Assembly: GCF_002220095.1 (NCBI RefSeq)
Contig: NZ_CP022372.1
Coordinates: 1,832,501-1,896,500, forward strand
Origin: Bosea sp. AS-1
GTDB lineage: Bacteria; Pseudomonadota; Alphaproteobacteria; Rhizobiales; Beijerinckiaceae
Length of the DNA stretch: 64,000 nt
Direction: 5' to 3'
This document shows, one piece after another, positions 12,101 through 25,069 of this stretch. Made by a program: the position numbers and the translations under genes. The notes beneath the pieces were generated by a model that worked only from the letters and a program-made list of their open reading frames with translations, ran no database searches and was not told the DNA's origin. Position 1 is the first letter of the stretch, and the number at the start of each line of letters is the position of its first letter.

Positions 12101-12330
12101 ACGCTGCCGGCCATGGTCGCGGGGTCGGCTCCGGGCCGGCTGGCGAAGACGCGGATCGTCGGGAAGTCGACGCTCGGCAGGCTCGCCACCGGCAGGAACA
12201 TGTAGGCGACCATGCCGACGAGAAAGAGGCCGATCGCCATCAGCGTGGTGCCGACGGGGCGCAGGATGAAGGCGTCCGACAGGCCCCGAACCGTCTTCCA
12301 GCCCTTGTCCTCGCCGGGGGCGTCGCTCAT
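9175..12330 (-). CDS. mdtC: RND multidrug efflux permease, MdtC type
   Basis: An inner-membrane RND transporter of 1051 aa. Twelve membrane helices are expected. Visible marks are the first helix followed by LPVASLPSVDFPTIRVFASRPGADP, the RND core GFVVDDAIVMIENIERN with the proton-relay acidic pair, and a C-terminal TLYTTPIIYLWMSKL. Together with the MdtB-type gene upstream it should form the B2C-type heterotrimer known for MdtBC, exporting hydrophobic drugs or bile-salt-like compounds by proton exchange. The ATG overlaps the mdtB stop by four bases. The gene is last in the four-gene operon. Confidence 0.92.
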   Translation of the reverse strand: MSDAPGEDKGWKTVRGLSDAFILRPVGTTLMAIGLFLVGMVAYMFLPVASLPSVDFPTIRVFASRPGADPATMAGSVAAPLERRLGSIPGVTEITSRSSLGSTSIVLQFDLTRSADSAARDVQAALNAAATDLPGDLPTLPQFRKANPNAAPVLILALTSDTLTPSAMYDAADTVIAQRIAQIEGVGEVTVNGAEQPAIRVRVDPAQLAAMGLSLDTIRTAIVNANTVSAVGSFDGERLSETLSANNQIRQPEDYGNIVVRSAKGTVVRLADVATVERGVRNSRAAGWYNGKPAILITITKQADANVIDTVDRVKALLPEVERWVPAGIDVSIMSDRTVTIRASIADIQHTLLISIALVMLVVFLFLRRTTLTIAAGVTVPLSIAGTFAAMWAAGFTLDNLSLMAVTISVGFVVDDAIVMIENIERNVARGISPLRAALLGAGQIGFTVVSISLSLIAAFIPLFFMDGVAGRFFREFTLTLTFAILVSTAVSLSVTPMVCAHFLRGGPHAPSRFDRIVERVLAGMTGFYARTLGVVLRHSWLMLIVMIATVALTVQMFRSAPKGYFPQDDTGLIIGFTQASTDISFPAMAQLQQRGAAIVSSDPAVLGVASFIGGGSGSVNTGRFFVSLKPLEERGLSSAQVVNRLRGRLGSIPGLRIFLTPVQDVRAGGRQGRSQYQFTLWDPNLPELEEWVPKVLERLRTLPELVDVSTDREQGGLEAQVVIDRNKASQLGVAIQAIDNVLSDAFSQRQISTIYGARNQYRVVIEVAPSRSRDPNDILDLYVPGRNGTQVPLRSLVKVERGTAPLVINHQGQFPAVTITYDLAPGVGLQEASDALVAAVEGLHMPASLRAEFAGDAKAFAQGAGSQGMMILVAILAVYIILGVLYESLIHPVTILSTLPSAGLGALIALRIAGADLTIIAFIGIILLIGIVKKNGIMLVDFAISAERQRAMSSREAIFAACLERFRPILMTTLSAMLGAVPLMIATGPGAELRRPLGITIVGGLILSQILTLYTTPIIYLWMSKLGIRRRAAPAEPAAPSPAGGDAGGA

Positions 12331-15300
12331 TCGGCTGCCTCCGGATCCGGATAGGGCACGACGCCGTCGGGGCCGCCGCCGAGACGCCGGCGGATCTTCT
12401 CGAGCGCGAGATAGATCACCGGCGTGGTATAGAGCGTCAGAAGCTGGCTGAGCAGCAGGCCGCCGATGATGGTGATGCCGAGCGGCTGGCGCAATTCGCT
12501 GCCGGTGCCGGTCGCCAGCGCCAGCGGCAGGGCGCCGAGCAGTGCCGCGAGTGTCGTCATCATGATCGGCCGGAAACGCAGCAGGCAGGCCTTGACGATG
12601 GCCTCCTCCGGCGAAAGGCCCTCATGCCGCTCGGCCTCCAGCGCGAAGTCGATCATCATGATCGCGTTCTTCTTGACGATGCCCATCAGCAGGATGATGC
12701 CGATCAGCGCCACGATCGAGAGCTCGCGGCCGGTCAGCACGAGCGCGAGCAGCGCGCCGACGCCGGCGGAGGGGAGCGTCGTCAGGATCGTGAAGGGGTG
12801 GACATAGCTCTCGTAGAGGATGCCGAGCACGAGATAGATCGTCACCACCGCGGCGAGGATCAGCCAGGGCTGATTGGCGAGCGATCGGTTGAACTCTGCC
12901 GCATCGGCGCTGAAGGCGCCGGAGATCGTGCTAGGCATGCCAATCTCGCGTTCGACCGCCGCGATCATCTTGACGGCGTCGCCCAGCGCCTCGCCCGGAG
13001 CGAGATCGAAGCTGATCGTAGCGGCCGGGAACTGCTCCTGATGCGCGATCGAGAGCGGAGCGGTCTCGCGGATCAGCCGGGTGAAGGAGGAGAGCGGCAC
13101 CTGCACGCTGTTCTGCGTCACCGTGACGGTACCAGCCGCATTGGTCTGGCCCTGCGTGTTGGTATTGCCGGTGACGTAGAGCTTCGAGAGTGCGGACGGG
13201 TCGCGCAGATATTGCGGCGCCGCTTCCAGGATCACGCGATACTGGTTCGACTGCTCGTAGATCGTGGCGATCTGGCGCTGGCCGAAGGCGTCGTAGAGCG
13301 TGTCGTCGACGGCTTGGATCGAGATGCCGAGTCGGCCGGCCTTGGCCCGGTCGATCTCGACATGGGCGCGCAATCCGCCATCCTGCGTCTCGTTGGCGAC
13401 GTTGCGAACGACCGGCTCGCGCCGCAGCGCCTCCGAGAGCCTACGCGCCCATTCCATCACCGCCGCCTGGTCGGCGCCGGTCAGCGTGTACTGGTATTGC
13501 GAGCGGCTGGCGCGGGTGGTGATCTGGATGTCCTGCACCGGCTGGACATAGGTGACGGCACCCGGGATCGCGGCGGCGACGGCGCGCAGCCGTTCCGCGA
13601 TCGTGACCGCGTCGTCGCGGCGCTCGTCCTTGGGCCTGAGCGTCACCGTCATGCGGGCGGTGTTGAGCGTCGCATTCGCCTGGCCGATGCCGAGCACCGA
13701 AACGACGCCGGTGACGTCTCCATCCTGTTCGAAGGCCTGCGTCACCTTCTCCTGCAGCCGCTTCATCTCGTTGAAGGAGACGTCCGGCGAGGATTCGAGC
13801 ACGACGTTGAGCAGGCCGGTATCCTGGCTCGGCAGGAAGCCCTTGGGAATGACGACGTACATCCACACCGTCAGCACCAGCGTGGCGAGCGTGGCGAGCA
13901 GCACGAGGCCGCGCGCCTTCAGTGCCCAGCCTAGCGTAACCTCGTAGGCACGCGCCATCGCGGAGACTGGCCATTCCGCCAGCCGCATCAGCCAGTTCTC
14001 GCGCTCATGGCCGCCGTGGCGCAACAACCGCGCGCACATCATCGGCGTCAAGGTGAGGGACACCACTGCCGAGACCACCACCGCGATGGTCAGGGTCAGG
14101 GCGAATTCGCGGAACATGCGGCCGACGAGACCGGTCATGAACAGCAGTGGGATGAAGACCGCGACCAGCGAGACCGTCAGCGAGATCACTGTGAAGCCGA
14201 TCTCGCGGGCGCCGTCATAGGCGGCTCTCAGCGGTTTCTTGCCCTGCTCCATGTTGCGCACGATGTTCTCGATCATCACGATCGCATCGTCGACGACGAA
14301 GCCGGTGCCGATGGTCAGCGCCATCAGCGAGAGATTGTCGAGGCTGAAGCCGGCGAGCCACATCACCGCGAAGGTCGCGATCAGCGAGAGCGGCAGCGCG
14401 ACGCCTGCGATGATCGTGGCGCGCACCGTGCGCAGGAAGAGCAGCACCACCAGCACGACCAGGGCGCAGGCGAGGATCAGCGTGAACTGCACGTCCGCGA
14501 TCGAGGCGCGGATCGTCTCGGTGCGGTCGCTGACCACCTGCAGTTCGACGCCCGCCGGCATGCCGTTGCGCAGGCGCGGGATTTCTTCCTTCACCTGGGC
14601 AACCGTGGTGACGATGTTGGCGCCCGGCTGGCGCATCACGTCGAGGACGACGGCGGTCTTGCCCTTGAACCAGGCGCCGACGCGGCTGTTTTCGAGGTCT
14701 TCCAGCACCACCGCGACGTCGCGCAGGAAGACCGGGGCGCCGCTGCGATAGGCGACGACGATGTCGCGATAGGCCGAAGCGCTGCCGATCTGGTCGTTGG
14801 CGCTGATCGTGTAGGCCTGATGGTTCCCGTCGAGCGCGCCCTTGGAGCCTGCGACATTGGCGTTGACGATGGCGGTACGCAGATCCTCCATGCCGAGCCC
14901 GTAGGCGGCGAGCCGGGCGAGATCGGCCTGGATGCGGATCGCTGGCCTGACGCCGCCCTCGATCGAAACATGGCCGACGCCGGAAACCTCCGAGAGGCGT
15001 GGCGAGAGCAGCGTGTCGGCGAGGTCGCTGAGCTGGCGCAGCGAGACCGTGTCCGAGGTCAGCGCCAGCACCATGATCGGCGCGTCGGCCGGGTTGATCT
15101 TCGCATAGGTCGGCGGATAGGGCAGGGTGCGCGGCAGCGTCGAGCCGGCCGCGTTGATCGCCGACTGTACATCCTGCGCGGCAGCATCGATGTTGCGGTC
15201 GAGGTCGAACTGCAGCGTGATCTGGCTGAGGCCGAAGGAGCTCTGCGAATACATCGTCGAGAGCGAGGGGATCTGCCCGAATTGCCGCTCCAACGGCGCC

Positions 15301-15491
15301 GTCACCAGCGAGGCGATCGTCTCAGGGTTCGCGCCCGGCAACTGCGTGGTGATCTGGATGGTCGGGAAGTCGACCTGCGGCAGGGCCGAGACCGGCAGGC
15401 GCAGATAGCCGAGGATGCCGCAGAGCAGCACCGCGATGCCGAGCAGCGAGGTCGCGATGGGCCGGCTGATGAAAGGCGCGGACACGCTCAT
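12327..15491 (-). CDS. mdtB: RND multidrug efflux permease, MdtB type
   Basis: The second RND permease, 1054 aa from ATG 15491 (MSVSAPFISRPIATSLL). It is close to the MdtB pattern: RLPVSALPQVDFPTIQITTQLPGANPE, QFGQIPSLSTMYSQSS, GTGFVVDDAIVMIENIVRN, and TLYTTPVIYLALEKIRRR near the end. A frame extending to 15533 would overlap the adaptor gene; ATG 15491 has GGGGCAG upstream and lies 13 bases after the adaptor stop, so it is preferred. Having two distinct RND permeases in one operon is the hallmark of MdtABC-like pumps. Confidence 0.92.
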   Translation of the reverse strand: MSVSAPFISRPIATSLLGIAVLLCGILGYLRLPVSALPQVDFPTIQITTQLPGANPETIASLVTAPLERQFGQIPSLSTMYSQSSFGLSQITLQFDLDRNIDAAAQDVQSAINAAGSTLPRTLPYPPTYAKINPADAPIMVLALTSDTVSLRQLSDLADTLLSPRLSEVSGVGHVSIEGGVRPAIRIQADLARLAAYGLGMEDLRTAIVNANVAGSKGALDGNHQAYTISANDQIGSASAYRDIVVAYRSGAPVFLRDVAVVLEDLENSRVGAWFKGKTAVVLDVMRQPGANIVTTVAQVKEEIPRLRNGMPAGVELQVVSDRTETIRASIADVQFTLILACALVVLVVLLFLRTVRATIIAGVALPLSLIATFAVMWLAGFSLDNLSLMALTIGTGFVVDDAIVMIENIVRNMEQGKKPLRAAYDGAREIGFTVISLTVSLVAVFIPLLFMTGLVGRMFREFALTLTIAVVVSAVVSLTLTPMMCARLLRHGGHERENWLMRLAEWPVSAMARAYEVTLGWALKARGLVLLATLATLVLTVWMYVVIPKGFLPSQDTGLLNVVLESSPDVSFNEMKRLQEKVTQAFEQDGDVTGVVSVLGIGQANATLNTARMTVTLRPKDERRDDAVTIAERLRAVAAAIPGAVTYVQPVQDIQITTRASRSQYQYTLTGADQAAVMEWARRLSEALRREPVVRNVANETQDGGLRAHVEIDRAKAGRLGISIQAVDDTLYDAFGQRQIATIYEQSNQYRVILEAAPQYLRDPSALSKLYVTGNTNTQGQTNAAGTVTVTQNSVQVPLSSFTRLIRETAPLSIAHQEQFPAATISFDLAPGEALGDAVKMIAAVEREIGMPSTISGAFSADAAEFNRSLANQPWLILAAVVTIYLVLGILYESYVHPFTILTTLPSAGVGALLALVLTGRELSIVALIGIILLMGIVKKNAIMMIDFALEAERHEGLSPEEAIVKACLLRFRPIMMTTLAALLGALPLALATGTGSELRQPLGITIIGGLLLSQLLTLYTTPVIYLALEKIRRRLGGGPDGVVPYPDPEAAE

Positions 15492-15504
15492 CGCGGCTGC
15501 CCCA

Positions 15505-16959
15505 TCATGGCTGTGCTTGCGGTCTTTGTGCACCCGATCCGCCGGCAGGGGAACCCTGCGAACCGGGGGCGGCTCCCTCGGACGGGGCGGGGCCGTTGCG
15601 GCGCGGCCGGTTCTGACGGGTACCGTCGGTGCCGGCGGGCGGTCCGGAAGGCGCTTCCTGCGCCGGGGCGGCGGAGCCCGCTCCGGAGGCGTTGCCGCCG
15701 CTCTGCTGGTCGCGCCGCCGACCTTGACCCTGACCCTGGCCGGGCTCGCGCGTGCCGCGACGGCCGGGCGCGGCGGCCGGGGGCTGAGCGGCTTCCTCCG
15801 GCGTCGAGACGCGGACCTTCGCCTTGTCGGTCAGGCGGGCGAAGCCGGTGGTGACGAGCTTGGCCGGCGGTTCGATGCCCGTGGTGATCACCGCCGTCGT
15901 CTCGTCCTGCTGGCCGACGGTGACATTGACCAGGCTCACCGTCTCGTCGTCGTTGACGGCGAAGACATAGGCGCCGTTCGGCCCGCGCTGGATGGCGGCG
16001 GTGGGCGCGACGACCACATGCTTCAGCACGTCGACGAAGACGCGGACATTGACGAACTGGCCCGGCCAGAGCTGCAGCCGTTCATTGGGGAAACGGGCCT
16101 TGACCTTGATCGTGCCGGTGGCCTGGTCGACGACGTTGTCGATGACCTCGACGACACCCCTGTCGATGATCGTCGTGCCGTCGGAATCGAGCGCGTCGAC
16201 CTCGACCGGGCCACGGGCCACCGCCGCGCTGACGGCGCGGAGCTGCTGCTGCGGCAGGTTGAAGACCATGGCGATCGGCCTGAGCTGGGTGATGACGACG
16301 AGGCCGTTCGAATCGGAGGCGCGGACGATGTTGCCCTGGTCGACCTGCCGGATGCCGAGGCGGCCGTCGATCGGCGCGCGGATCGTGGTGTAGTCGAGAT
16401 AGGCCTTGGCGTTGTCGATCGCGCCCTGGTCGGAGCGGATCTGCGCCTCGAGCTGCGCCACCGTGGCGCGCTGGGTGTCGGCCTGCTGACGCGAGCCGTA
16501 ATCGGTCTGGGCGAGCTTGGCGTAGCGCTCGAGGTCGGCGCGAGCATTGGCAAGCAGAGCTTCATCCTGCGCCTTCTTGGCCATCGCCTGGTCGTATTGC
16601 GCCTGGTAGGTCGCGGGATCGATCTTGGCGAGCACATCGCCCTTCTTGACGTCCTGTCCGTCCTTGAATGCGATTTCGAGCAGCCGGCCGTCGACCTGCG
16701 TGCGCACCGTCACGGTGTTCAGCGCCTGGATCGTGCCGACGGCATCGGCGGTTACCGGCACGTCGTCATAGCGCGCCGGCGTCGCGATCACCGGAATCGC
16801 TCCCTCGTTGTTGCCGAAGCGGGCACGGCGCCCGCCTCGCCCGCCGCCCTGCTGGGCGGTGGCGACGCCGTCGCCGCCGGGCATCCAGCCGCCATTGTAG
16901 CTGTGCCAACCCCAGGCGGCGGCGCCGAGCAGTACGAGGATGAACAAAAAGCGCTTCAT
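15505..16959 (-). CDS. mdtA: RND periplasmic adaptor subunit, MdtA type
   Basis: A membrane-fusion protein of 484 aa linking the permeases to the outer-membrane channel. An N-terminal anchor helix (FLFILVLLGAAAWGW) is followed by lipoyl halves around VRTQVDGRLLEIAFKDGQDVKKGDVLAKID, an alpha-hairpin (about 125-180) and beta-barrel segments (TTIRAPIDGRLGIRQVDQGNIV). The conserved part ends near residue 390. The last 90 or so residues are an unusual Pro/Gly/Arg/Gln-rich, low-complexity tail, longer than in typical MdtA. The ATG overlaps the stop of the channel gene by four bases. Confidence 0.92.
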   Translation of the reverse strand: MKRFLFILVLLGAAAWGWHSYNGGWMPGGDGVATAQQGGGRGGRRARFGNNEGAIPVIATPARYDDVPVTADAVGTIQALNTVTVRTQVDGRLLEIAFKDGQDVKKGDVLAKIDPATYQAQYDQAMAKKAQDEALLANARADLERYAKLAQTDYGSRQQADTQRATVAQLEAQIRSDQGAIDNAKAYLDYTTIRAPIDGRLGIRQVDQGNIVRASDSNGLVVITQLRPIAMVFNLPQQQLRAVSAAVARGPVEVDALDSDGTTIIDRGVVEVIDNVVDQATGTIKVKARFPNERLQLWPGQFVNVRVFVDVLKHVVVAPTAAIQRGPNGAYVFAVNDDETVSLVNVTVGQQDETTAVITTGIEPPAKLVTTGFARLTDKAKVRVSTPEEAAQPPAAAPGRRGTREPGQGQGQGRRRDQQSGGNASGAGSAAPAQEAPSGPPAGTDGTRQNRPRRNGPAPSEGAAPGSQGSPAGGSGAQRPQAQP

Positions 16960-18440
16960 TCCGCTGCCTCGGTCGCGGTGATGGCAGCGCGGCGGTCGGC
17001 CTCGGTCCAGCCGCCGCCCAGCGCCTTGAACAGGTCGACATAGGCGGTCAGCTTCTGGAGCTTGATCTGCGAGAGCTGGTCCTGCGCCTGGAACAGGGTC
17101 TGCTGGGTGTTGAGCAGCGTCACGATGTCGATGGTGCCCTCGCGCAGACGTTGCTCGGTGATGGCGTAGGCACGCCGCGCCGAGGCCACCGTCTCGGCCT
17201 GCAGGCGCTCGTGGCGGGTGTTTTCCTGGATCGCGATCAACGCGTTCTCCACATCGGCGAAGGCGCTGACGATGGTCTTGCGGTAGGTCGCAATCAACTC
17301 GTCGGCGGTGCCACGCTCGAGTTCGACCCTGGCCCGGAGGTTGCCTCCGTCGAGGATGGGCTGGACGAGCCCTGCCGCCGCCGAAGCGAAGGCAGCGTCC
17401 GGCCGCAGCAGGTTCTTCAGCACGGCGCTCTCGAGACCGCCCTGGCCGGTCAGGCTGATACTTGGGAACAGCGCAGCGCGGGCGGCATAGAGCGTCGCCT
17501 CCTGCGAGGTGAGGCGCGCCTCGGCCTCGGCGATGTCGGGCCGGCGCTGCAGCAGTTGCGAGGGCAGGCCGGCGCGCACGGACGGCACGGCGATGGCGTT
17601 CAGGCTGCCACCCTTGATCGCGACGGCGGCCGGCGTCTCGCCGACGAGAACGGCGAGCGTGACCTTGGCCTGGCGTAGCGAGAGTTCGAGGGCCGGCACA
17701 GAGGCCTTTTGCTGCGCCACCACGCTTTCCTGCTGCGCGATGTCGAGCTGGGTTGCTGTGCCGACCGAGAGGCGGGCCTGGATCACCTTGAGCGTCCGTT
17801 CCGCCACCGCGATGTTCTCGCGAGCGATGCGCAGGCGGTCCTGCGCCGCTAGGACCTGGAAATAGGTACCGGCCACGCTGGAGACGGCGGTGAGCGCGAC
17901 CACGTCGCGGTCGAAGCGCGTGGCCTCCGCGGCGAAGCGCCCGGCATCGGCCGCCGCACGGTTCTTGCCCCAGAAGTCGAGCTCGTAGCTTGCCGAGAGG
18001 CCGAGGCTGAACTGGTTGCCGACGCTTTCGCTGAACGGGCCGCGCTTGGAGCCCAGCGTGCCGGGTCTGAGGCTGCGGGAAGCGTCGGTCGAGCCACTCA
18101 GCGTCGGGTAGAGCGCGGCCGACGAGATGCGCGACTGCGCGTCGGCCTGCCGGATCCGCGTCATGGCGATGGCGATGTCGAAATTCTCGCCGACCGTTCG
18201 CTCGACCAGCCGATTCAGCTCCGGCGATCGGAACAGCCGCGGCCAGTCCGGCGAGACGGGAGGCGCGGCGCGGCGTTCGCCGGCGCCGAAGCTGCGTGTC
18301 ACTGCGACGCCGAGATCGGGCCGCTGGTCGGCCGGCAGGCAGGCGCCGAGGCCGGCGGCAACAGCGACAGCGGAAGAAAGGCGGAAGAGCGAATGCCCGA
18401 ATGCGTGTCTTGTCAGATCACGCCTGTAGCCCGGCATCAT
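16956..18440 (-). CDS. NodT-family outer-membrane efflux channel lipoprotein
   Basis: A TolC-like channel of 494 aa. The N-terminus has a hydrophobic signal ending in the lipobox GLGAC (Cys at about 34). Two repeats of the OEP domain follow, with the typical RPDIAEAEARLTSQEATLYAARAALFPSISLTG segment. It is the first gene of the operon, in the order channel, adaptor, MdtB, MdtC. Start ATG 18440 (or the adjacent ATG 18437) is preceded by GGAGAAGAG. A candidate operator lies 65-100 bases upstream. Confidence 0.91.
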   Translation of the reverse strand: MMPGYRRDLTRHAFGHSLFRLSSAVAVAAGLGACLPADQRPDLGVAVTRSFGAGERRAAPPVSPDWPRLFRSPELNRLVERTVGENFDIAIAMTRIRQADAQSRISSAALYPTLSGSTDASRSLRPGTLGSKRGPFSESVGNQFSLGLSASYELDFWGKNRAAADAGRFAAEATRFDRDVVALTAVSSVAGTYFQVLAAQDRLRIARENIAVAERTLKVIQARLSVGTATQLDIAQQESVVAQQKASVPALELSLRQAKVTLAVLVGETPAAVAIKGGSLNAIAVPSVRAGLPSQLLQRRPDIAEAEARLTSQEATLYAARAALFPSISLTGQGGLESAVLKNLLRPDAAFASAAAGLVQPILDGGNLRARVELERGTADELIATYRKTIVSAFADVENALIAIQENTRHERLQAETVASARRAYAITEQRLREGTIDIVTLLNTQQTLFQAQDQLSQIKLQKLTAYVDLFKALGGGWTEADRRAAITATEAAE

Positions 18441-18813: not shown

Positions 18814-19716
18814 GTGAGAAGTCCGTATGAGGTCCTCGGTGTTGCCGCGACGGCTTCCGCCGCCGAGATCCAGAGTGCCTATCGCAAGCTCGCCAAGAAA
18901 CTGCATCCCGACCTCAACCCCGGCGACAAAGCCGCGGAGGAGAAGTTCAAGGAGGTCGCCGGCGCCTATGACCTGCTGAGCGATGCCGACAAGCGCAAGC
19001 GCTTCGATGCCGGCGAGATCGATGCCTCCGGCGCCGAGCGGCCACAGCAGCACTATTATCGCGACTATGCCGGCGGCAATCACGGCAACCCTTATGCCGA
19101 TGCGTCCGGCTATGCCGATTTCATGGATGAGGACGACAGCTTCGCCGAGCTGCTCCGGCGCAGCCAGCGCGCGCGGGCGAACCGGCGCGGACAGGACCTG
19201 CACTACCAGCTCGCCGTCGATTTCGTCGATTCGATCACCGGCGCGACGAAGCGGCTGAACCTGCCGGATGGCAGCACGATCGACGTGACGATCCCGCCCG
19301 GGCTGATCGATGGCCAGACGCTGAGGCTCAAGGGCAAGGGCGCACCGGGAGCGGGCAAGGGCGGTCCGGGTGATGCGCTGATCGAGGTCGAGGTTCGGCC
19401 CGACCCGCGCTTCACCCGGGAGGGCGACGATATCACCATCGAGCTCCCGATCTCGCTCACCGAAGCCGTCCTCGGTGGCGAGGTTCGGGTGCCGACGCCG
19501 ACGGGCGCCGTCAGCATGACCGTGCCGAAGGGCGCCAACACCGGCACGAAGCTGCGCTTGCGCGGCAAGGGCGCCCCACGGCGCGGCGGCGGGCAGGGCG
19601 ATCAGTTCGTCCGGCTCAAGGTGGTGCTGCCGAAGGCGCCCGATCCCGAGCTCGAGGCCTTCGTCTCGAGCTGGAAGGACAAGGACTACGATCCGCGCGA
19701 GGGCCGGACGTCATGA
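18814..19716 (+). CDS. cbpA: CbpA-like DnaJ-family co-chaperone
   Basis: A J-domain protein of 300 aa that stimulates DnaK ATPase. The J domain (1-65) has the HPD motif at residues 31-33. A Gly/polar linker follows, then the two beta-rich client-binding domains ([26 protein letters not shown]... and [21 protein letters not shown]). The zinc-finger region of true DnaJ is absent, and together with the cbpM neighbour this identifies CbpA. Translation begins at GTG 18814. The stop overlaps the cbpM ATG by four bases. Confidence 0.93.
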
Positions 19717-19994
19717 CGATGACCAAGCAGGAATTCCTGACCTCGTCAGGGCTCAAGGTGAAGGTGCTGGAGTTCTGGCTGGAGCAGCGCTGGCTGGTGC
19801 CTGAGGAGGCGGCGGGCGAGCCGCGCTTCCGCGAGATCGACATCGCGCGTGCCCATCTCATCCGCCAGCTCAAGGACGATTTCGGCGCCAATGATGCGGG
19901 TATCGACGTGATCCTGCATCTGATGGACCAGCTTCATGGCATGCGCCGGGCGCTCGCGGAGCTGCGCGAGGAGGCGCGGAAGGACCGGGCCTAG
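19713..19994 (+). CDS. cbpM: Chaperone modulator CbpM
   Basis: A 93-aa MerR-like small protein that binds the J domain of CbpA and inhibits it. The family pattern is visible: [12 protein letters not shown], then [14 protein letters not shown], then [43 protein letters not shown]. It is translationally coupled to cbpA (ATGA overlap). Confidence 0.9.
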
Positions 19995-20048
19995 GCTGGG
20001 GGCATGCGGTTACCGGGCAGGGGGAAGGCCGAACCAGGGAGAAAGACC

Positions 20049-20276
20049 ATGAATGATGCGTTGACGGGGCAGGGGCGCGGTAACATCGACGGGCTCGTCC
20101 TGCGGATGCTGGTCCGCAAGCTCGTCGCGAAAGGCGTGCTGACCCAGGACGATGTCCGCGCGCTGCTGTTCGAGGCGGCGAAGCGGATGGACGAGGTCGG
20201 CAGCGAGCAGACCGATCAGGCGGCCTGGAGCATGGTCAACGAGGATCTGGCGCCGAGCTTTCTCGGAGGAAGCTGA
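20049..20276 (+). CDS. Small hypothetical protein, predicted helical
   Basis: A 75-aa protein of no family I can name. It is mostly helical, with the segment LVRKLVAKGVLTQDDVRALLFEAAKRMDEVG. The start is ATG 20049 because GGGAGAAAG precedes it; a longer frame from 20004 lacks a ribosome site. It sits between cbpM and the DUF2171 gene on the same strand, in a run of small stress-type genes. Confidence 0.65.
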   Translation: MNDALTGQGRGNIDGLVLRMLVRKLVAKGVLTQDDVRALLFEAAKRMDEVGSEQTDQAAWSMVNEDLAPSFLGGS

Positions 20277-20400
20277 CCCTGGTGAGGGCCGGGAACAGGC
20301 TCCTGCGCCCGGCGTTAGGGTTCCTGTCTGTCGCGGCCGTGCCGCATGGCGGACGAATGGTCTCGACAGCCGTTGAGCTTCAACCCGGGAGGGCTTCAGG

Positions 20401-20655
20401 ATGCAGGACAAGGTCAGGGAGAACATGGAGGTCATCGGGGCGGACGGGGTCCATGTCGGGACGGTCGACCGGGTCGAGGGCGGCCGCATCAAGCTCAAGA
20501 AGAGCGACGCCTATGGCCGGCATGAAGGTCATCATCATTACATCGAGCTCGGCTTCGTTGCCGGCGTCGAAGGCGACAAGGTGCGGCTCTCCGCCAATGC
20601 CGACATCGCCGTGACGCTGGAGGAGGAGCCGTCCGGCAAGCCGGTCAGCCTGTGA
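20401..20655 (+). CDS. DUF2171-family protein
   Basis: An 84-aa DUF2171 protein, a PRC-barrel-like small domain. The family signature reads MEVIGADGVHVGTVDRVEGGRIKLKK, followed by HHHYIELGFVAGVEGDKVRLSANAD. These are widespread in alphaproteobacteria and often sit near stress genes; no biochemical role is known. Its ATG is directly preceded by GGGAGGGCTTCAGG, a good ribosome site. Confidence 0.8.
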   Translation: MQDKVRENMEVIGADGVHVGTVDRVEGGRIKLKKSDAYGRHEGHHHYIELGFVAGVEGDKVRLSANADIAVTLEEEPSGKPVSL

Positions 20656-20720
20656 TGCCCTCGGCCGCGGTGGCCCGCCCGGGTGATCGCGGTCCTTATC
20701 GTTGCGGGAGGACCGGTGCG

Positions 20721-20915
20721 ATGCAGCAATACGACCTCTATCTCAATGCGAAGAAGCCGGCGATCGGCCTTTATGTCGCCAGCGGTGCGAAGCTCCCGGA
20801 TTTCGCTGATCCGAAGGAGTGGATCTTCGGCGGAACCGCTGCGGCGGATTTGCTGCCGCCGAGCGTGATCGAAGGCGTCGCCAGCGCCGGCCACGCCTTC
20901 CGCGACATGGATTGA
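20721..20915 (+). CDS. Small hypothetical protein
   Basis: A 64-aa protein starting MQQYDLYLNAKKPAIGLYV, with a following PDFADPKEWIFGG. I do not recognise a named family, though the pattern looks like a conserved alphaproteobacterial small protein. ATG 20721 has GGGAGG about ten bases upstream. A longer frame from 20652 would overlap the DUF2171 stop and lacks a site of its own. Confidence 0.6.
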   Translation: MQQYDLYLNAKKPAIGLYVASGAKLPDFADPKEWIFGGTAAADLLPPSVIEGVASAGHAFRDMD

Positions 20916-21060
20916 AACCACCCCGGCGCCAGCTCCCGGGGGCAGGGGCAAGCCATCGAGCTCCTTGCCGCGCGGCCTGGCCGCCCAGTCCGCAACCGGC
21001 CACAGCCGCTGGCGGCATGACATTGAACCATCGCTGTTAAGGGTCAAAAACGGGTCGTCC

Positions 21061-22137
21061 ATGGATAGAGGTCTGCCATCCGTGATTTCGCAGCCGGTCA
21101 TGGCGACGCTGACGCGTTCGGCGCTGTTCCTGGTCGTGACGATCGATCCGGGCCGCGGCCCCGAGGCGACGGTGCGGGAGCTGTGCGCCGACCTGTCGTC
21201 GCTGCTGCGGGCGGTCGGCTTCCGCGATCTCCAGGGCAATCTGTCCTGCGTCATGGCCTTCGGCTCGGAAGCCTGGGACCGGCTGTTCGACGGGCCGCGG
21301 CCGCAGGAGCTGCATCCGTTCCAGGAGATCCGCGGCGTGCATCACGCCGTCTCGACCCCGGGCGACATCCTGTTCCACATCCGCGCGACCAGGCGGATGG
21401 ACCTGTGCTTCGAGCTGGCCAAGGAGATCATGGCCCGGCTCGACGGCGCGGTGACCACCGTCGACGAGGTCCACGGCTTCAACTATTTCGACGACCGCGA
21501 CCTGATCGGCTTCGTCGACGGCACCGAGAACCCGGCCGGGCCGGACGCCATCCGCGCCACCCTGATCGACGCGGAGGACCCGGCCTTCGCCGGCGGCAGC
21601 TACGTCATCGTCCAGAAGTACCTGCACGACCTTCCCGGCTGGAACCGGGTGCCGGTCGAGGAGCAGGAGAACATCATCGGCCGCTACAAGCTCTCCGACA
21701 TCGAGCAGGCGGACGCGGTCAAGAAGCCCTATGCCCACAATGTCCTGACCAGCCTCACCGAGGATGGCGAGCCGGTCGACATCCTGCGCGACAACATGCC
21801 CTTCGGCAAAGTCGGCAGCGCCGAGTTCGGCACCTATTTCATCGGCTATTGCCGCACGCCGCGCCGGATCGAGCGCATGCTGGAGAACATGTTCGTCGGC
21901 TCGCCGCCGGGCAATTACGACCGGCTGCTCGATTTCAGCCGCGCGGTCACCGGCTCGCTGTTCTTCGTGCCGACCGCGACCTTCCTCGACGCCGTCACGC
22001 CGGAGATGGCCGCGCCGGAGACCGCCGCGCCGGCCCCTGACGCGTCCGCGCCGGCGCCGGCGGCTTCCCCATCCAGATCGTCCGGCGACGGCTCGCTCGG
22101 CATCGGCTCCCTGAAGGAAGAGGCAGGCCATGAATAA
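21061..22137 (+). CDS. DyP-type peroxidase with encapsulin targeting tail
   Basis: A heme peroxidase of 358 aa, DyP class B. The distal signature GFVDG is at residues 150-154 (Asp153) and the proximal heme ligand is His226 in YAHN; Arg243 and Asn245 follow in LRDNM. The catalytic domain ends near residue 310. An Ala/Pro/Ser-rich linker then leads to a C-terminal DGSLGIGSLK (343-352), the known cargo-loading peptide of DyP enzymes packaged in encapsulins. The next gene is the encapsulin shell, whose ATG lies inside this gene (8-base overlap). The start is less certain: ATG 21061 has only a weak ribosome site, and frames further upstream exist. Likely role: peroxide-driven oxidation inside the shell. 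Confidence 0.93.
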   Translation: MDRGLPSVISQPVMATLTRSALFLVVTIDPGRGPEATVRELCADLSSLLRAVGFRDLQGNLSCVMAFGSEAWDRLFDGPRPQELHPFQEIRGVHHAVSTPGDILFHIRATRRMDLCFELAKEIMARLDGAVTTVDEVHGFNYFDDRDLIGFVDGTENPAGPDAIRATLIDAEDPAFAGGSYVIVQKYLHDLPGWNRVPVEEQENIIGRYKLSDIEQADAVKKPYAHNVLTSLTEDGEPVDILRDNMPFGKVGSAEFGTYFIGYCRTPRRIERMLENMFVGSPPGNYDRLLDFSRAVTGSLFFVPTATFLDAVTPEMAAPETAAPAPDASAPAPAASPSRSSGDGSLGIGSLKEEAGHE

Positions 22138-22936
22138 TCTGCACCGGGAGCTCGCTCCCATCTCGGATGCCGCCTGGGCGCAGATCGAGGACGAGGCCTC
22201 GCGCACGCTGAAGCGCTATCTGGCGGCGCGGCGCGTCGTCGACGTGGTCGGGCCGAAGGGGCCGGCCTATGCCGCGGCCGGGACGGGCCATACCAGGCCG
22301 ATCGAGGCGCCGGGCGCGGGCATCCGCTCGCTGCTGCGCGAGGCGCAAGCCCTGGTCGAGCTGCGCGTGCCCTTCACGCTGACGCGGCAGGCGGTCGACG
22401 ATGTCGAGCGCGGCGCGAACGACTCGAACTGGCAGCCGGTGAAGGATGCCGCCAGGACGATCGCCTTCGCCGAGGACCGGGCGGTGTTCGAGGGCTATGC
22501 CGCGGCCGGGATCGGCGGCATCCGCGCCGGCAGCAGCAATGCCGCGGTGGCGCTGCCGGCCAAGCTCGACGCCTATCCGGAGGCGGTCGCCCGGGCGCTG
22601 AGCGAACTCAAGCTCGCCGGCTGCAACGGGCCCTATGCGCTGGTGCTGGGCGGCGAGGCCTATCGGGCCGCGAGCGGCGGCAGCGACGACGGCTACCCGA
22701 TCTTCCACCATGTCGAGCGCATCGTCGATGGCGGGGTGATCTGGGCGCCGGCGATCCAGGGCGGCTTCGTGCTGACCACGCGCGGCGGCGATTTCGAGCT
22801 CGATCTCGGCCAGGACATCTCGATCGGCTATCTCAGCCACAGCGCCACGACGGTCGAGCTCTACCTGCAGGAGAGCTTCACCTTCCGCATGCTCACCTCG
22901 GAAGCCGCCGTCGCCCTCGCGGCGCAAGGCAAGTAG
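22130..22936 (+). CDS. Encapsulin nanocompartment shell protein
   Basis: A family-1 encapsulin of 268 aa (linocin M18-like, HK97 phage-capsid fold). The N-terminus MNNLHRELAPISDAAWAQIEDEASRTLKRYLAARRVVDV is the standard shell-protein and cargo-binding region. Later segments include LREAQALVELRVPFTLTRQ, the GYAAAGIGGIRAGSSN loop and SIGYLSHSATTVELYLQESFTFRM near the end. It should assemble into a roughly 60-subunit icosahedron enclosing the DyP enzyme. Its ribosome site (AAGAGGCAGG) lies within the DNA coding for the DyP targeting tail, which couples shell and cargo synthesis. Confidence 0.95.
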   Translation: MNNLHRELAPISDAAWAQIEDEASRTLKRYLAARRVVDVVGPKGPAYAAAGTGHTRPIEAPGAGIRSLLREAQALVELRVPFTLTRQAVDDVERGANDSNWQPVKDAARTIAFAEDRAVFEGYAAAGIGGIRAGSSNAAVALPAKLDAYPEAVARALSELKLAGCNGPYALVLGGEAYRAASGGSDDGYPIFHHVERIVDGGVIWAPAIQGGFVLTTRGGDFELDLGQDISIGYLSHSATTVELYLQESFTFRMLTSEAAVALAAQGK

Positions 22937-23018
22937 CAAGGCCAAGCCCCGTCCGCACAGCCCAGCGAAGACAGGGCCGCAAGGGGTCGCGGATCGGGCA
23001 GGGGAGAGGAGGCTGGCG

Positions 23019-23231
23019 ATGGCGGAAAGCTTCAAGGTCGGCGACCATGTCGGCTGGAACTCCGAGGCCGGCCATGTCTCGGGCGTGATCATCGCGATCC
23101 GCACGGCCGATTTCGATTACAAGGGTCACACTCACCGGGCCTCGCCGGACGAGCCACAATACCTGATCAAGAGCGACAAGACCGACCATGTCGCGGCCCA
23201 CAAGGGCAGTGCCCTTCGGACAATCCGCTAA
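23019..23231 (+). CDS. DUF2945 / HVA1 Tudor-like small protein
   Basis: A 70-aa protein of the DUF2945 (hypervirulence-associated Tudor-like) family. It shows the pattern FKVGDHVGWNSEAGHVSGVIIAI, then GHTHRASPDEPQYLIKSDKTDHVAAHKGSAL. The family is a small beta-barrel of unknown role, common in alphaproteobacteria. GGGGAGAGGAGG precedes the ATG. It is followed after 12 bases by the DUF488 gene. Confidence 0.82.
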   Translation: MAESFKVGDHVGWNSEAGHVSGVIIAIRTADFDYKGHTHRASPDEPQYLIKSDKTDHVAAHKGSALRTIR

Positions 23232-23243
23232 GGTGGAGGGAGG

Positions 23244-23792
23244 GTGAATCTCCCCTTCTTCACGATCGGCCATTCCGACCGCAGCATCGAGGAATTCACC
23301 TATTTGCTGGCCGGGGCCGATATCGCGCTCGTGGCGGATATCCGGAAGATTCCGAAGTCGCGGGCCAATCCGCAGTTTAACGCGGCGGCGCTGGCGCCGG
23401 CCTTGGAGGCGAGTGGCATCGGCTATGAGCGTGTGGCCGAGCTGGGTGGCCTGCGCGGCAAGACGAGAGCCGTGCCGCCTGAACTGAACGGCTTCTGGAC
23501 GAACAAGAGCTTCCACAACTATGCCGACTACGCGCTCTCGGACCAGTTTCGCACCGGGCTCGATCGCCTGGTTCGCGACGGGCGGGAACGGCGCTGCGCG
23601 ACGATGTGCTCGGAGGCGGTGTGGTGGCGTTGCCACCGGCGCATCGTCAGTGATTATCTGATTGCGCGCGGAGAGACGGTCTTCAACATCATGGGGCAGG
23701 GGCGTCTGGAACCCGCCCGTCTGACGGAAGGTGCCGTCATCCGTGACGATGGCAGCGTGATCTATCCCGCTCGGGAGCGGTTCGACTCATGA
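23244..23792 (+). CDS. DUF488-domain protein
   Basis: A 182-aa DUF488 protein. Typical features are FFTIGHSDRSIEEFTYLL at the N-terminus, LVADIRKIPKSRANPQFN, and the CSEAVWWRCHRRIVSDYL segment with conserved Cys, Trp and His. The family has no settled function. Translation starts at GTG 23244, with GGTGGAGGGAGG directly upstream. The stop overlaps the next ATG by four bases. Confidence 0.87.
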   Translation: MNLPFFTIGHSDRSIEEFTYLLAGADIALVADIRKIPKSRANPQFNAAALAPALEASGIGYERVAELGGLRGKTRAVPPELNGFWTNKSFHNYADYALSDQFRTGLDRLVRDGRERRCATMCSEAVWWRCHRRIVSDYLIARGETVFNIMGQGRLEPARLTEGAVIRDDGSVIYPARERFDS

Positions 23793-25069
23793 GCAGCAGT
23801 GCCGAACACCATGTCGTCATCGTCGGTGCCGGCTTCGGCGGCCTGGAAGCGGCGCGTAATCTCGCGCGGGCGCCGGTCCGGATCACGATGATCGACCGAC
23901 GCAACCACCATCTGTTCCAGCCGTTGCTCTATCAGGTCGCCACGGCCTCGCTGCCGACCTCGGAGATCGCCTGGCCGATCCGCTTCCTGCTGCGCAGCCA
24001 CAAGAACGTCACGACCCTGCTCGGCACCGTCGTGGGCGTCGATCGCGAGACGAAGCAGGTGCTGCTCGAGGGCGAGCCGCCGATCACCTTCGACACGCTG
24101 ATCCTCGCGACCGGGGCGCGCCACGCCTATTTCGGCCATGACGAATGGGAGCCCTATGCGCCCGGTGTGAAGACGCTCGAGGATGCGACCCGCATCCGGC
24201 GGCGCATTCTCTCGGCCTTCGAGCAGGCGGAGTGGGAGACGGACGAAGCGCGGCGGGCGGAATGGCTCACCTTCGTGATCATCGGGGCAGGGCCGACCGG
24301 GGTGGAGCTCGCCGGCACCATTGCCGAGCTGGCGCATGACACGCTGCGCGGCGATTTTCGCCATTTCGACACGCGCAGTGCGCGCGTGATCCTGGTCGAG
24401 GCAGGGCCGCGCATCCTGGCCGGCTTCACCGAAGATCTCTCGGCCTATGCCGAGCGTGCGCTGAACCGTCTCGGGGTCGAGGTCAAGCTGGGGCAGCCGG
24501 TCTCGGAATGCCGGGAAAGCGGTATCGAGCTCGGCGGCGCCTTCCTGCCGGCGCGGACCATCCTGTGGGCGGCGGGCGTCGCGGCTTCACCGGCGGCAGA
24601 GTGGCTGGAGGCACCGGCCGACCGGGCCGGGCGGGTTCGTGTGGAACCTGATCTCTCGGTGCCGGGCGAGCCCGACATCTTCGTCATCGGCGATACCGCC
24701 TTCGTCGCCGGCGCTGACGGCAAGCCGGTTCCGGGGGTGGCACCGGCGGCCAAGCAGGAGGGCAGCTATGTCGCGCAGGTGATCAGGGAGCGGCTGCAGG
24801 GCAAGTTGGCTCCGGGGCCCTTCATCTACAAGAATGCCGGCAATCTCGCGACCATCGGCAAGCGTGCGGCCATCGTCGATTTCGGTTGGATCAAGCTGCG
24901 CGGGCGGCTGGCCTGGTGGATCTGGGGCATCGCCCACATCTTCTTCCTGATCGGCCTGCGCAATCGCCTCGCCGTCGCGCTCAACTGGCTGTGGATCTAT
25001 GTCAGCGGCCATCGCAGCGCCCGGCTCATCACCCAGGGCAATGTCGGATCGGCCCGCAAGGCGGAGTGA
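23789..25069 (+). CDS. NDH-2-like NAD(P)/FAD-dependent oxidoreductase
   Basis: A 426-aa flavoprotein of the type-2 NADH dehydrogenase family. The FAD site VIVGAGFGGLEAARNL is at the N-terminus, and the NADH site IIGAGPTGVELAG is near residue 170. FVIGDTAFV binds the flavin near residue 300, followed by PGVAPAAKQEG. The last 60 residues (WWIWGIAHIFFLIGLRNRLAVALNWLWIYV) are a hydrophobic membrane-association region. It should oxidise NADH and reduce quinone without proton pumping. It is translationally coupled to the DUF488 gene. Confidence 0.9.
   Translation: MSSSAEHHVVIVGAGFGGLEAARNLARAPVRITMIDRRNHHLFQPLLYQVATASLPTSEIAWPIRFLLRSHKNVTTLLGTVVGVDRETKQVLLEGEPPITFDTLILATGARHAYFGHDEWEPYAPGVKTLEDATRIRRRILSAFEQAEWETDEARRAEWLTFVIIGAGPTGVELAGTIAELAHDTLRGDFRHFDTRSARVILVEAGPRILAGFTEDLSAYAERALNRLGVEVKLGQPVSECRESGIELGGAFLPARTILWAAGVAASPAAEWLEAPADRAGRVRVEPDLSVPGEPDIFVIGDTAFVAGADGKPVPGVAPAAKQEGSYVAQVIRERLQGKLAPGPFIYKNAGNLATIGKRAAIVDFGWIKLRGRLAWWIWGIAHIFFLIGLRNRLAVALNWLWIYVSGHRSARLITQGNVGSARKAE

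Follow-up and report, generated by a model that had tools for sequence, protein, structure and literature searches.

A DyP encapsulin operon present in two identical copies with different gene settings in Bosea sp. AS-1

DyP systems form the most abundant cargo class of family 1 encapsulins, with 1,505 systems in the accessible text of the survey by Andreas and Giessen (PMC8346489). Among structurally solved systems, the nearest to the one analysed here is that of Klebsiella pneumoniae (8u50, 8u4z), in which, according to the accessible part of its description (PMC10960027), the DyP gene stands directly before that of a family 1 shell, the cargo carries a GSL-IGSLK tag, the shell residues Arg34, Asp38, Asp229 and Ile230 dock this tag, and transposases flank the operon together with genes for formate dehydrogenase and RpoH. 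The same type of shell and cargo occurs in a transposon-associated enterobacterial system, for which the accessible text proposes a stress role and a link to mobile DNA (PMC12140327). Both reports show that the mobile character of enterobacterial DyP encapsulins, and a link to RpoH, are already in print.

The DNA analysed here, referred to as the window, is a stretch of 64,000 nucleotides from the chromosome of Bosea sp. AS-1, a bacterium of soil type. Its encapsulin operon has the shell family, tagged cargo, docking residues and gene order of the Klebsiella system, whereas its neighbours are DUF2171, sP64, CbpA/CbpM, TUDOR, DUF488 and NDH-2 genes and the operon is present twice. In contrast to the enterobacterial system, no transposase-flanked unit was seen in Bosea; the copies reside in chaperone islands, and relatives are found on megaplasmids. 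The accessory genes given in the accessible text of PMC8346489 (mycobacterial oxidoreductases and cupins, and DUF1345 and DUF5709 in Streptomyces) also differ from those of Bosea. Our literature search, which covered few subscription journals, returned nothing joining encapsulins with Bosea or with ClpB, no link of sigma-EcfG to an encapsulin operon, and no encapsulin operon kept in two conversion-linked, differently wired copies; in the accessible text of the sources, encapsulin and DUF2171 met only as separate entries of an Acinetobacter table, and encapsulin and gene conversion only in giant-virus work. Taken as a whole, we are highly confident that the locus is best explained as a family 1 encapsulin operon with a tagged DyP cargo, set in a stress module and present in two copies, probably through conversion. 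While the system itself is ordinary in kind, its copy history is unusual and an arrangement with two promoters is plausible; the copy history, together with a promoter motif found on one side only, deserves specialist attention.

The cargo and shell genes and their neighbours

The sequence-only reading had described a DyP peroxidase packaged in an encapsulin, followed by a family 1 shell gene, and both identifications are borne out (Table 1). The shell protein scores 340.1 bits against NCBIfam encap_f1 (NF041155, cut-off 100) and 313.2 bits against Pfam Linocin_M18 (PF04454, cut-off 24.3), in both cases above the curated cut-off for membership, and its best PDB match is the Klebsiella family 1 shell 8u50 (400.4 bits). 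The peroxidase matches Dyp_perox_N and Dyp_perox_C (102.1 and 194.9 bits) and, with its tag included, finds its best PDB match in the Klebsiella encapsulin-associated DyP 8u4z (484.5 bits). To judge by these sequence matches, shell and cargo are of the experimentally solved DyP-encapsulin type, and the system is an ordinary one of a known kind, near that of Klebsiella.

Table 1. Features of the window, with positions counted from its first base
Feature	Position	Strand	Basis
CbpA-like DnaJ co-chaperone	18814..19716	+	Pfam DnaJ_C 152 bits, DnaJ 86 bits
CbpM-like chaperone modulator	19713..19994	+	Pfam MerR_2 45 bits
Small ORF between CbpM and DUF2171	20004..20276	+	tblastn 68-69% to L023 (G005), F3-2 plasmid
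Sigma-EcfG-like promoter motif GGAAC-N16-CGTT	20292..20316	+	Pattern scan; 109 bases upstream of DUF2171
Repeated block, 2598 bases	20388..22985	+	blastn and exact comparison; inverted match G000:C3:2919355-2921952
DUF2171 protein	20401..20655	+	Pfam PF09939, 87.2 bits
sP64, 64 aa, unnamed family	20721..20915	+	Homologue search; ATG preceded by GGGAGGA
DyP-type peroxidase, encapsulin cargo	21061..22137	+	Pfam, NCBIfam and PDB matches; ATG 21061, stop 22137, 358 aa
Cargo-targeting peptide DGSLGIGSLK	22087..22116	+	Translation; aligns with Klebsiella tag
Shell ribosome-binding site AAGGAAGAGG	22114..22123	+	Sequence reading; begins on the tag's Lys codon
8-base overlap ATGAATAA, cargo stop and shell start	22130..22137	+	Sequence reading
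Family 1 encapsulin shell protein	22130..22936	+	Pfam, NCBIfam and PDB matches; 268 aa
DUF2945 / Hva1_TUDOR protein	23019..23231	+	Pfam 72.1 bits
DUF488 protein	23244..23792	+	Pfam 102.2 bits
NDH-2 type pyridine nucleotide-disulphide oxidoreductase	23789..25069	+	Pfam Pyr_redox_2 169.7 bits, NDH2_C 32.2 bits

The peroxidase ends, as had been claimed, in a cargo-loading peptide, and the four active-site residues named by the same reading are intact at their positions in the protein: Asp153, His226, Arg243 and Asn245, which we take to be the catalytic Asp, the heme-binding His, and the Arg and Asn of the DyP active site. Together with both DyP domains, these features place the enzyme in class B and its encapsulated subgroup. 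All four inner-surface residues to which the Klebsiella tag docks recur in the window shell under the same numbering. When a strict back-translated pattern of the tag was scanned against the 5.84 Mb genome, only the two DyP copies matched (0 matches for a reversed-pattern control), so that a second cargo bearing this strict tag is rejected. The genome encodes a third DyP of 439 aa (L003, G000:C3:5176066-5176518) with a twin-arginine-like start and a tail without the tag; the genes on either side resemble an EfeUOB iron-uptake set, which would make this DyP a candidate EfeB.

Particle assembly and cargo loading are predicted from the close solved relatives. The shell protein would self-assemble into an icosahedral T=1 compartment of about 24 nm, which the heme peroxidase would enter by means of its C-terminal tag, carried on an Ala/Pro/Ser linker, and the enclosed enzyme would use an organic co-substrate to consume peroxide, in defence against stress. 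Alternatively, DyP could act mainly as a free peroxidase for which the shell is optional, as where the shell gene has decayed: on plasmid pB32-1 of Bosea sp. F3-2 (L088 / L126) the DyP gene is annotated and the shell is not, its frame being in four pieces, and the 14 kb read of a Paraburkholderia caribensis plasmid encode a DyP whose tail resembles the tag (GSLNIGALK) but yield no match to a shell. In the window, however, DyP and shell genes are both intact and overlapping and the docking site is complete, and a DyP match lies near the shell in 43 of 44 related shell-encoding loci; we consider a mainly free enzyme very unlikely and favour the packaged one. On pB32-1 the cargo has apparently outlasted the shell, and the P. 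caribensis enzyme with the tag-like tail lies at 9539-10666 of L160.

Cargo and shell genes overlap by eight bases, as had been read. The proposal that the ribosome site of the shell gene is embedded in the DNA of the tag stands in part: the site begins on the last (Lys) codon of the tag and stops 6 bases short of the shell ATG, but it spans the end of the tag and the following EEA and does not lie wholly inside the tag. That synthesis of the two proteins is physically tied is plausible, but not special to this locus. Both gene ends were readable in 36 of the 44 related loci, where 12 pairs overlap (10 by 8 bases and 2 by 4), 19 are separated by 1-7 bases and 5 by 22-25 bases, these gaps running to where the tblastn match begins, a point that does not in every case coincide with the start codon; the 8-base overlap of a Caballeronia plasmid is identical to that of the window. 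Going by gene arrangement, coupling of cargo and shell is common among proteobacterial relatives and is therefore not peculiar to this genome. An enterobacterial relative expressed in E. coli from a simple two-gene operon showed poor cargo loading and a low heme content of about 4% (PMC12140327), so that tight coupling is not demonstrated to aid loading.

The neighbours listed in the sequence-only reading, namely CbpA/CbpM, DUF2171, DUF2945 (now Hva1_TUDOR), DUF488 and NDH-2, agree with the Pfam matches, CbpM by way of MerR-like ones; CbpM homologues are annotated as 'chaperone modulator CbpM' in plasmids of Bosea F3-2 and Shinella. The small ORF between CbpM and DUF2171 has no Pfam or NCBIfam match. 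The operon would comprise DUF2171, sP64, DyP and shell genes, set within a module of chaperone and redox stress genes. That a wider stress island surrounds the operon had also been proposed, and at least one module gene does accompany 17 of the 21 Hyphomicrobiales loci: DUF2171 in 11, sP64, ClpB and NDH-2 in 7 each, TUDOR in 5, and CbpA, CbpM and DUF488 in 3 each, all counted within the fetched stretch, in which four loci have no module gene (L036, L040, L046, L070). Bosea contributes 6 of the 21; among the other 15, at least one module gene occurs in 11. In the 23 loci from elsewhere, a ClpB-like gene was found in 5 and the remaining module genes in none. A Shinella plasmid carries CbpA, CbpM, DUF2171, sP64, DyP, shell, NDH-2 and DUF2945 consecutively, and the megaplasmid of Methylorubrum extorquens AM1 has DnaK, CbpA, CbpM, ClpB, DUF2171, DyP and shell genes, with a partial sP64 and weak TUDOR matches. 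Such neighbours point to a combination of protein damage and oxidative stress. Farther upstream in the window (12327-18440, minus strand), three genes resemble by eye an RND efflux set of pump, adaptor and outer-membrane factor.

Two copies and their history

The block that includes DUF2171, sP64, DyP and shell genes occurs a second time in the chromosome, inverted and 1.06 Mb away; the sequence-only reading had passed over this second copy, which lay outside its view, as well as the sP64 gene. When 104 kb around the window was compared with 80 kb around the second match, a single identical block was found, in which the window copy (copy A) and the distant one (copy B) agree at all 2598 of 2598 bases, setting a 95% upper bound of 0.12% on their divergence. 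Pfam searches of the genome accordingly return two shells and two DyPs with identical scores. Just outside the block edges, 35 (left) and 24 (right) of 100 positions match, and the flanks are unrelated. The only other similarity between the compared regions is that of CbpA/CbpM, which precede copy B also and are 83% identical over 1195 bases spanning both genes (blastn); this pair has not been homogenised. Copy A lies between CbpA, CbpM and the EcfG-like motif upstream and TUDOR, DUF488 and NDH-2 genes downstream, while copy B is preceded, in order, by Hsp20, DnaK, a CDGSH protein, CbpA, CbpM, a histidine kinase and ClpB and followed by DoxX (Pfam). The setting of copy B (within L008) is chaperone-rich; as a lead only, its Hsp20, DnaK, CbpA/CbpM and ClpB genes may relate it to the transmissible locus of stress tolerance and to heat-resistance islands.

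Identity this complete might mean that the second copy is an artefact of assembly or polishing, as short-read polishing can homogenise near-identical repeats. However, both copies sit well within a single 5.54 Mb contig, each bordered left and right by unique sequence, the left flank of copy B is collinear with a locus of another species, and polishing would be unable to remove a between-species difference of ~15%; we regard an artefact as highly improbable. Instead, we suggest that one copy probably overwrote the other recently by gene conversion, as comparison with the genus indicates. Full-length shell genes were found in 9 of 67 genomes and fragments only in three (G070, G033, G020), with no shell match at E 0.001 in the other 55. 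The intact copy of genome G069 (L085) aligns collinearly with copy B for 8925 columns at 83.7%, a stretch that takes in the junction of clpB and DUF2171. On another contig of G069, a remnant (L089) still has the last part of DUF2171, the beginning of sP64 and the last part of the shell gene. TUDOR, DUF488 and NDH-2 come next, in the order seen in copy A, with which L089 is collinear from the shell 3' end through these genes (2304 columns, 83.4%). Because NDH-2 matches once in each of the two genomes at E 1e-100, copy A and L089 probably represent the same locus, although L089 matches only the right side of A, given that something other than CbpA lies to its left and that the sequence directly past the shell stop also differs. 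The right flank of B is likewise not common to L085.

The L089 remnant (354 columns) is 91.7% identical to the B-type copy of its own genome, whereas the next-best sequence reaches 84.6% and that of AS-1 80.9% (support 0.98). Since the right piece alone (184 columns) gives a weaker result, 89.4% to the own copy versus 87.2% to AS-1 (support 0.91), the left piece (170 columns) carries most of the signal. A remnant of 100 bases in G023 is 93% identical to that genome's own copy and 89% to the next best (support 0.93). Wherever a Bosea genome holds the block or its remains twice, which is the case in three, the pair are each other's closest relatives, two of the comparisons resting on short remnants; copies are closer within than between genomes, and each site has an orthologous flank on one side. 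By rpoB, G069 is 91.9% identical to AS-1 and 97.7% to its nearest genome, G003, placing G069 and AS-1 in different clades; as they are not sister species, transfer of whole islands is possible. The blastn pieces of two fragment-bearing loci (L027 / L028, in G033 and G020) omit the same part of the cassette: DUF2171 leads within 30-40 bases into the last part of the shell gene, and NDH-2 comes next, as from one inherited deletion.

The sharp block edges between unrelated flanks, the patchy occurrence of the cassette in the genus and its presence on plasmids would also be expected if the block had been inserted once, recently and duplicatively, into a copy-free site, rather than converted between two old copies. 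Yet the junctions of both sites are found in relatives: clpB-DUF2171 in L085 and L127, CbpM-small ORF-DUF2171 in L023 and L126, and shell-TUDOR in L089, L039, L042, L044 and L069. An insertion would have had to land where relatives hold the cassette or a remnant of it, and in the 200 bases read beyond each end of the two copies we noticed no transposase, terminal inverted repeat or target-site repeat. An insertion is thus the less likely history, though one with some plausibility. Under gene conversion, an intact copy could be copied back into a remnant such as that of L089 through pairing at both ends, and because one copy would have overwritten the other, the product would stay constant while the switches differ.

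The sP64 family

The 64-aa protein sP64, annotated as a 195-base hypothetical CDS in the Shinella and Bosea F3-2 plasmids, has homologues in 14 clusters of a large protein search, and 30 columns are invariant across 13 sequences. None of these 13 members has a Pfam match at E 0.1, the family bears no NCBIfam name, and its profile finds nothing in the PDB below E = 0.16; an AlphaFold model built from the 13 sequences has a mean pLDDT of 64.5 and a pTM of 0.50. Among 397 genomes of the order, sP64 occurs in 5, a shell over the cut-off in 10 and both in 4 (hypergeometric P = 1.0e-6, or 3.2e-5 without the AS-1 genome, for genomes that are not independent). In the four genomes with both, no more than about 1.5 kb separates sP64 from the shell gene; in one genome (G432), sP64 is present but a 16 kb stretch gives no match to a module gene. 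Seven of the 21 Hyphomicrobiales loci have sP64, including a broken copy in G023 (L031), as against none of the 23 others. In 6 of 9 plasmid records with sP64, the gene lies inside a DyP-shell match, and the remaining three are from Burkholderiaceae, at 40-43% identity. In the two of these that were read, about 3 kb separates sP64 from shell and DyP (a Caballeronia plasmid) and about 2.3 kb from the tagged DyP (one P. caribensis plasmid, with no shell in the 14 kb read).

Across these genomes and plasmids sP64 tracks DyP-encapsulin loci, making the family a concrete candidate for an accessory protein. Its distribution within Bosea provides counter-evidence to a required role, as sP64 is intact in two of the nine shell-bearing genomes (AS-1 and G069), broken or reduced in two (G023, G005) and undetected in five (G003, G024, G075, G089, G008).

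Candidate promoters of the two copies

The general stress response of Alphaproteobacteria acts through PhyR-NepR and sigma-EcfG, for which we take the consensus to be GGAAC-N16/17-CGTT. The AS-1 genome encodes NepR, and a consensus motif lies upstream of copy A, outside the duplicated block; of the two copies, only A has it, the aligned place in B reading CGAAC without the downstream half. The strict pattern matches twice in the window, once per strand. In 20 loci whose 250 bases ahead of DUF2171 were scanned, the motif is exact in three (the window, L044 and L069) and has one mismatch in 11, while six have no match within one mismatch (copy B, L088, L038, L043, L071, L119); chance would give 0.109 matches in 250 bases when one mismatch is allowed, and as the 20 loci are related, they are not independent tests. 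GGAAC stands at -87 to -124 from DUF2171 in 11 of the 20, and most relatives have GGTT or GGGTT instead of CGTT. In L085 and L127, GGAAC overlaps the end of an intact clpB, so that coding could preserve it there. Where aligned loci have no intact clpB just upstream, GGAAC is kept in 7 of 8, with L088 the exception; in several, the surrounding sequence is a decayed clpB end, yet GGAAC persists.

Genome-wide, the strict pattern is not enriched, with 103 matches against 96 for a reversed control. Eight of the 103 fall within 9.8 kb around nepR (G000:C3:112371-122232), where 0.17 would be expected, in a span chosen post hoc. Based on these findings, we lean slightly towards EcfG control of copy A, which would then be expressed as part of the general stress response. 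It is conceivable, though we would not yet favour it, that copy B is regulated differently, being transcribed by read-through or from another promoter behind clpB. A more speculative proposal joins these points: identical operons would be kept so by conversion, with A on PhyR-NepR-EcfG and B on ClpB/DnaK heat shock, and sP64 would serve the DyP encapsulins of Alpha- and Betaproteobacteria as an accessory dedicated to them; we put it forward only tentatively. To our knowledge, little is known of the physiological trigger of DyP encapsulins. With two operons in two settings and one candidate general-stress promoter, the question of when a cell wants the compartment becomes testable in a single, harmless genus.

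An RpoH-type promoter was also sought, and the strict alphaproteobacterial pattern has no match on the plus strand of the window; the 30 matches of a loose pattern are uninformative. In the same DNA, a terminator scan found 2 candidates against 3.2 expected, and a scan for sigma-70 promoters yielded a single site (23630; 0.5 expected).
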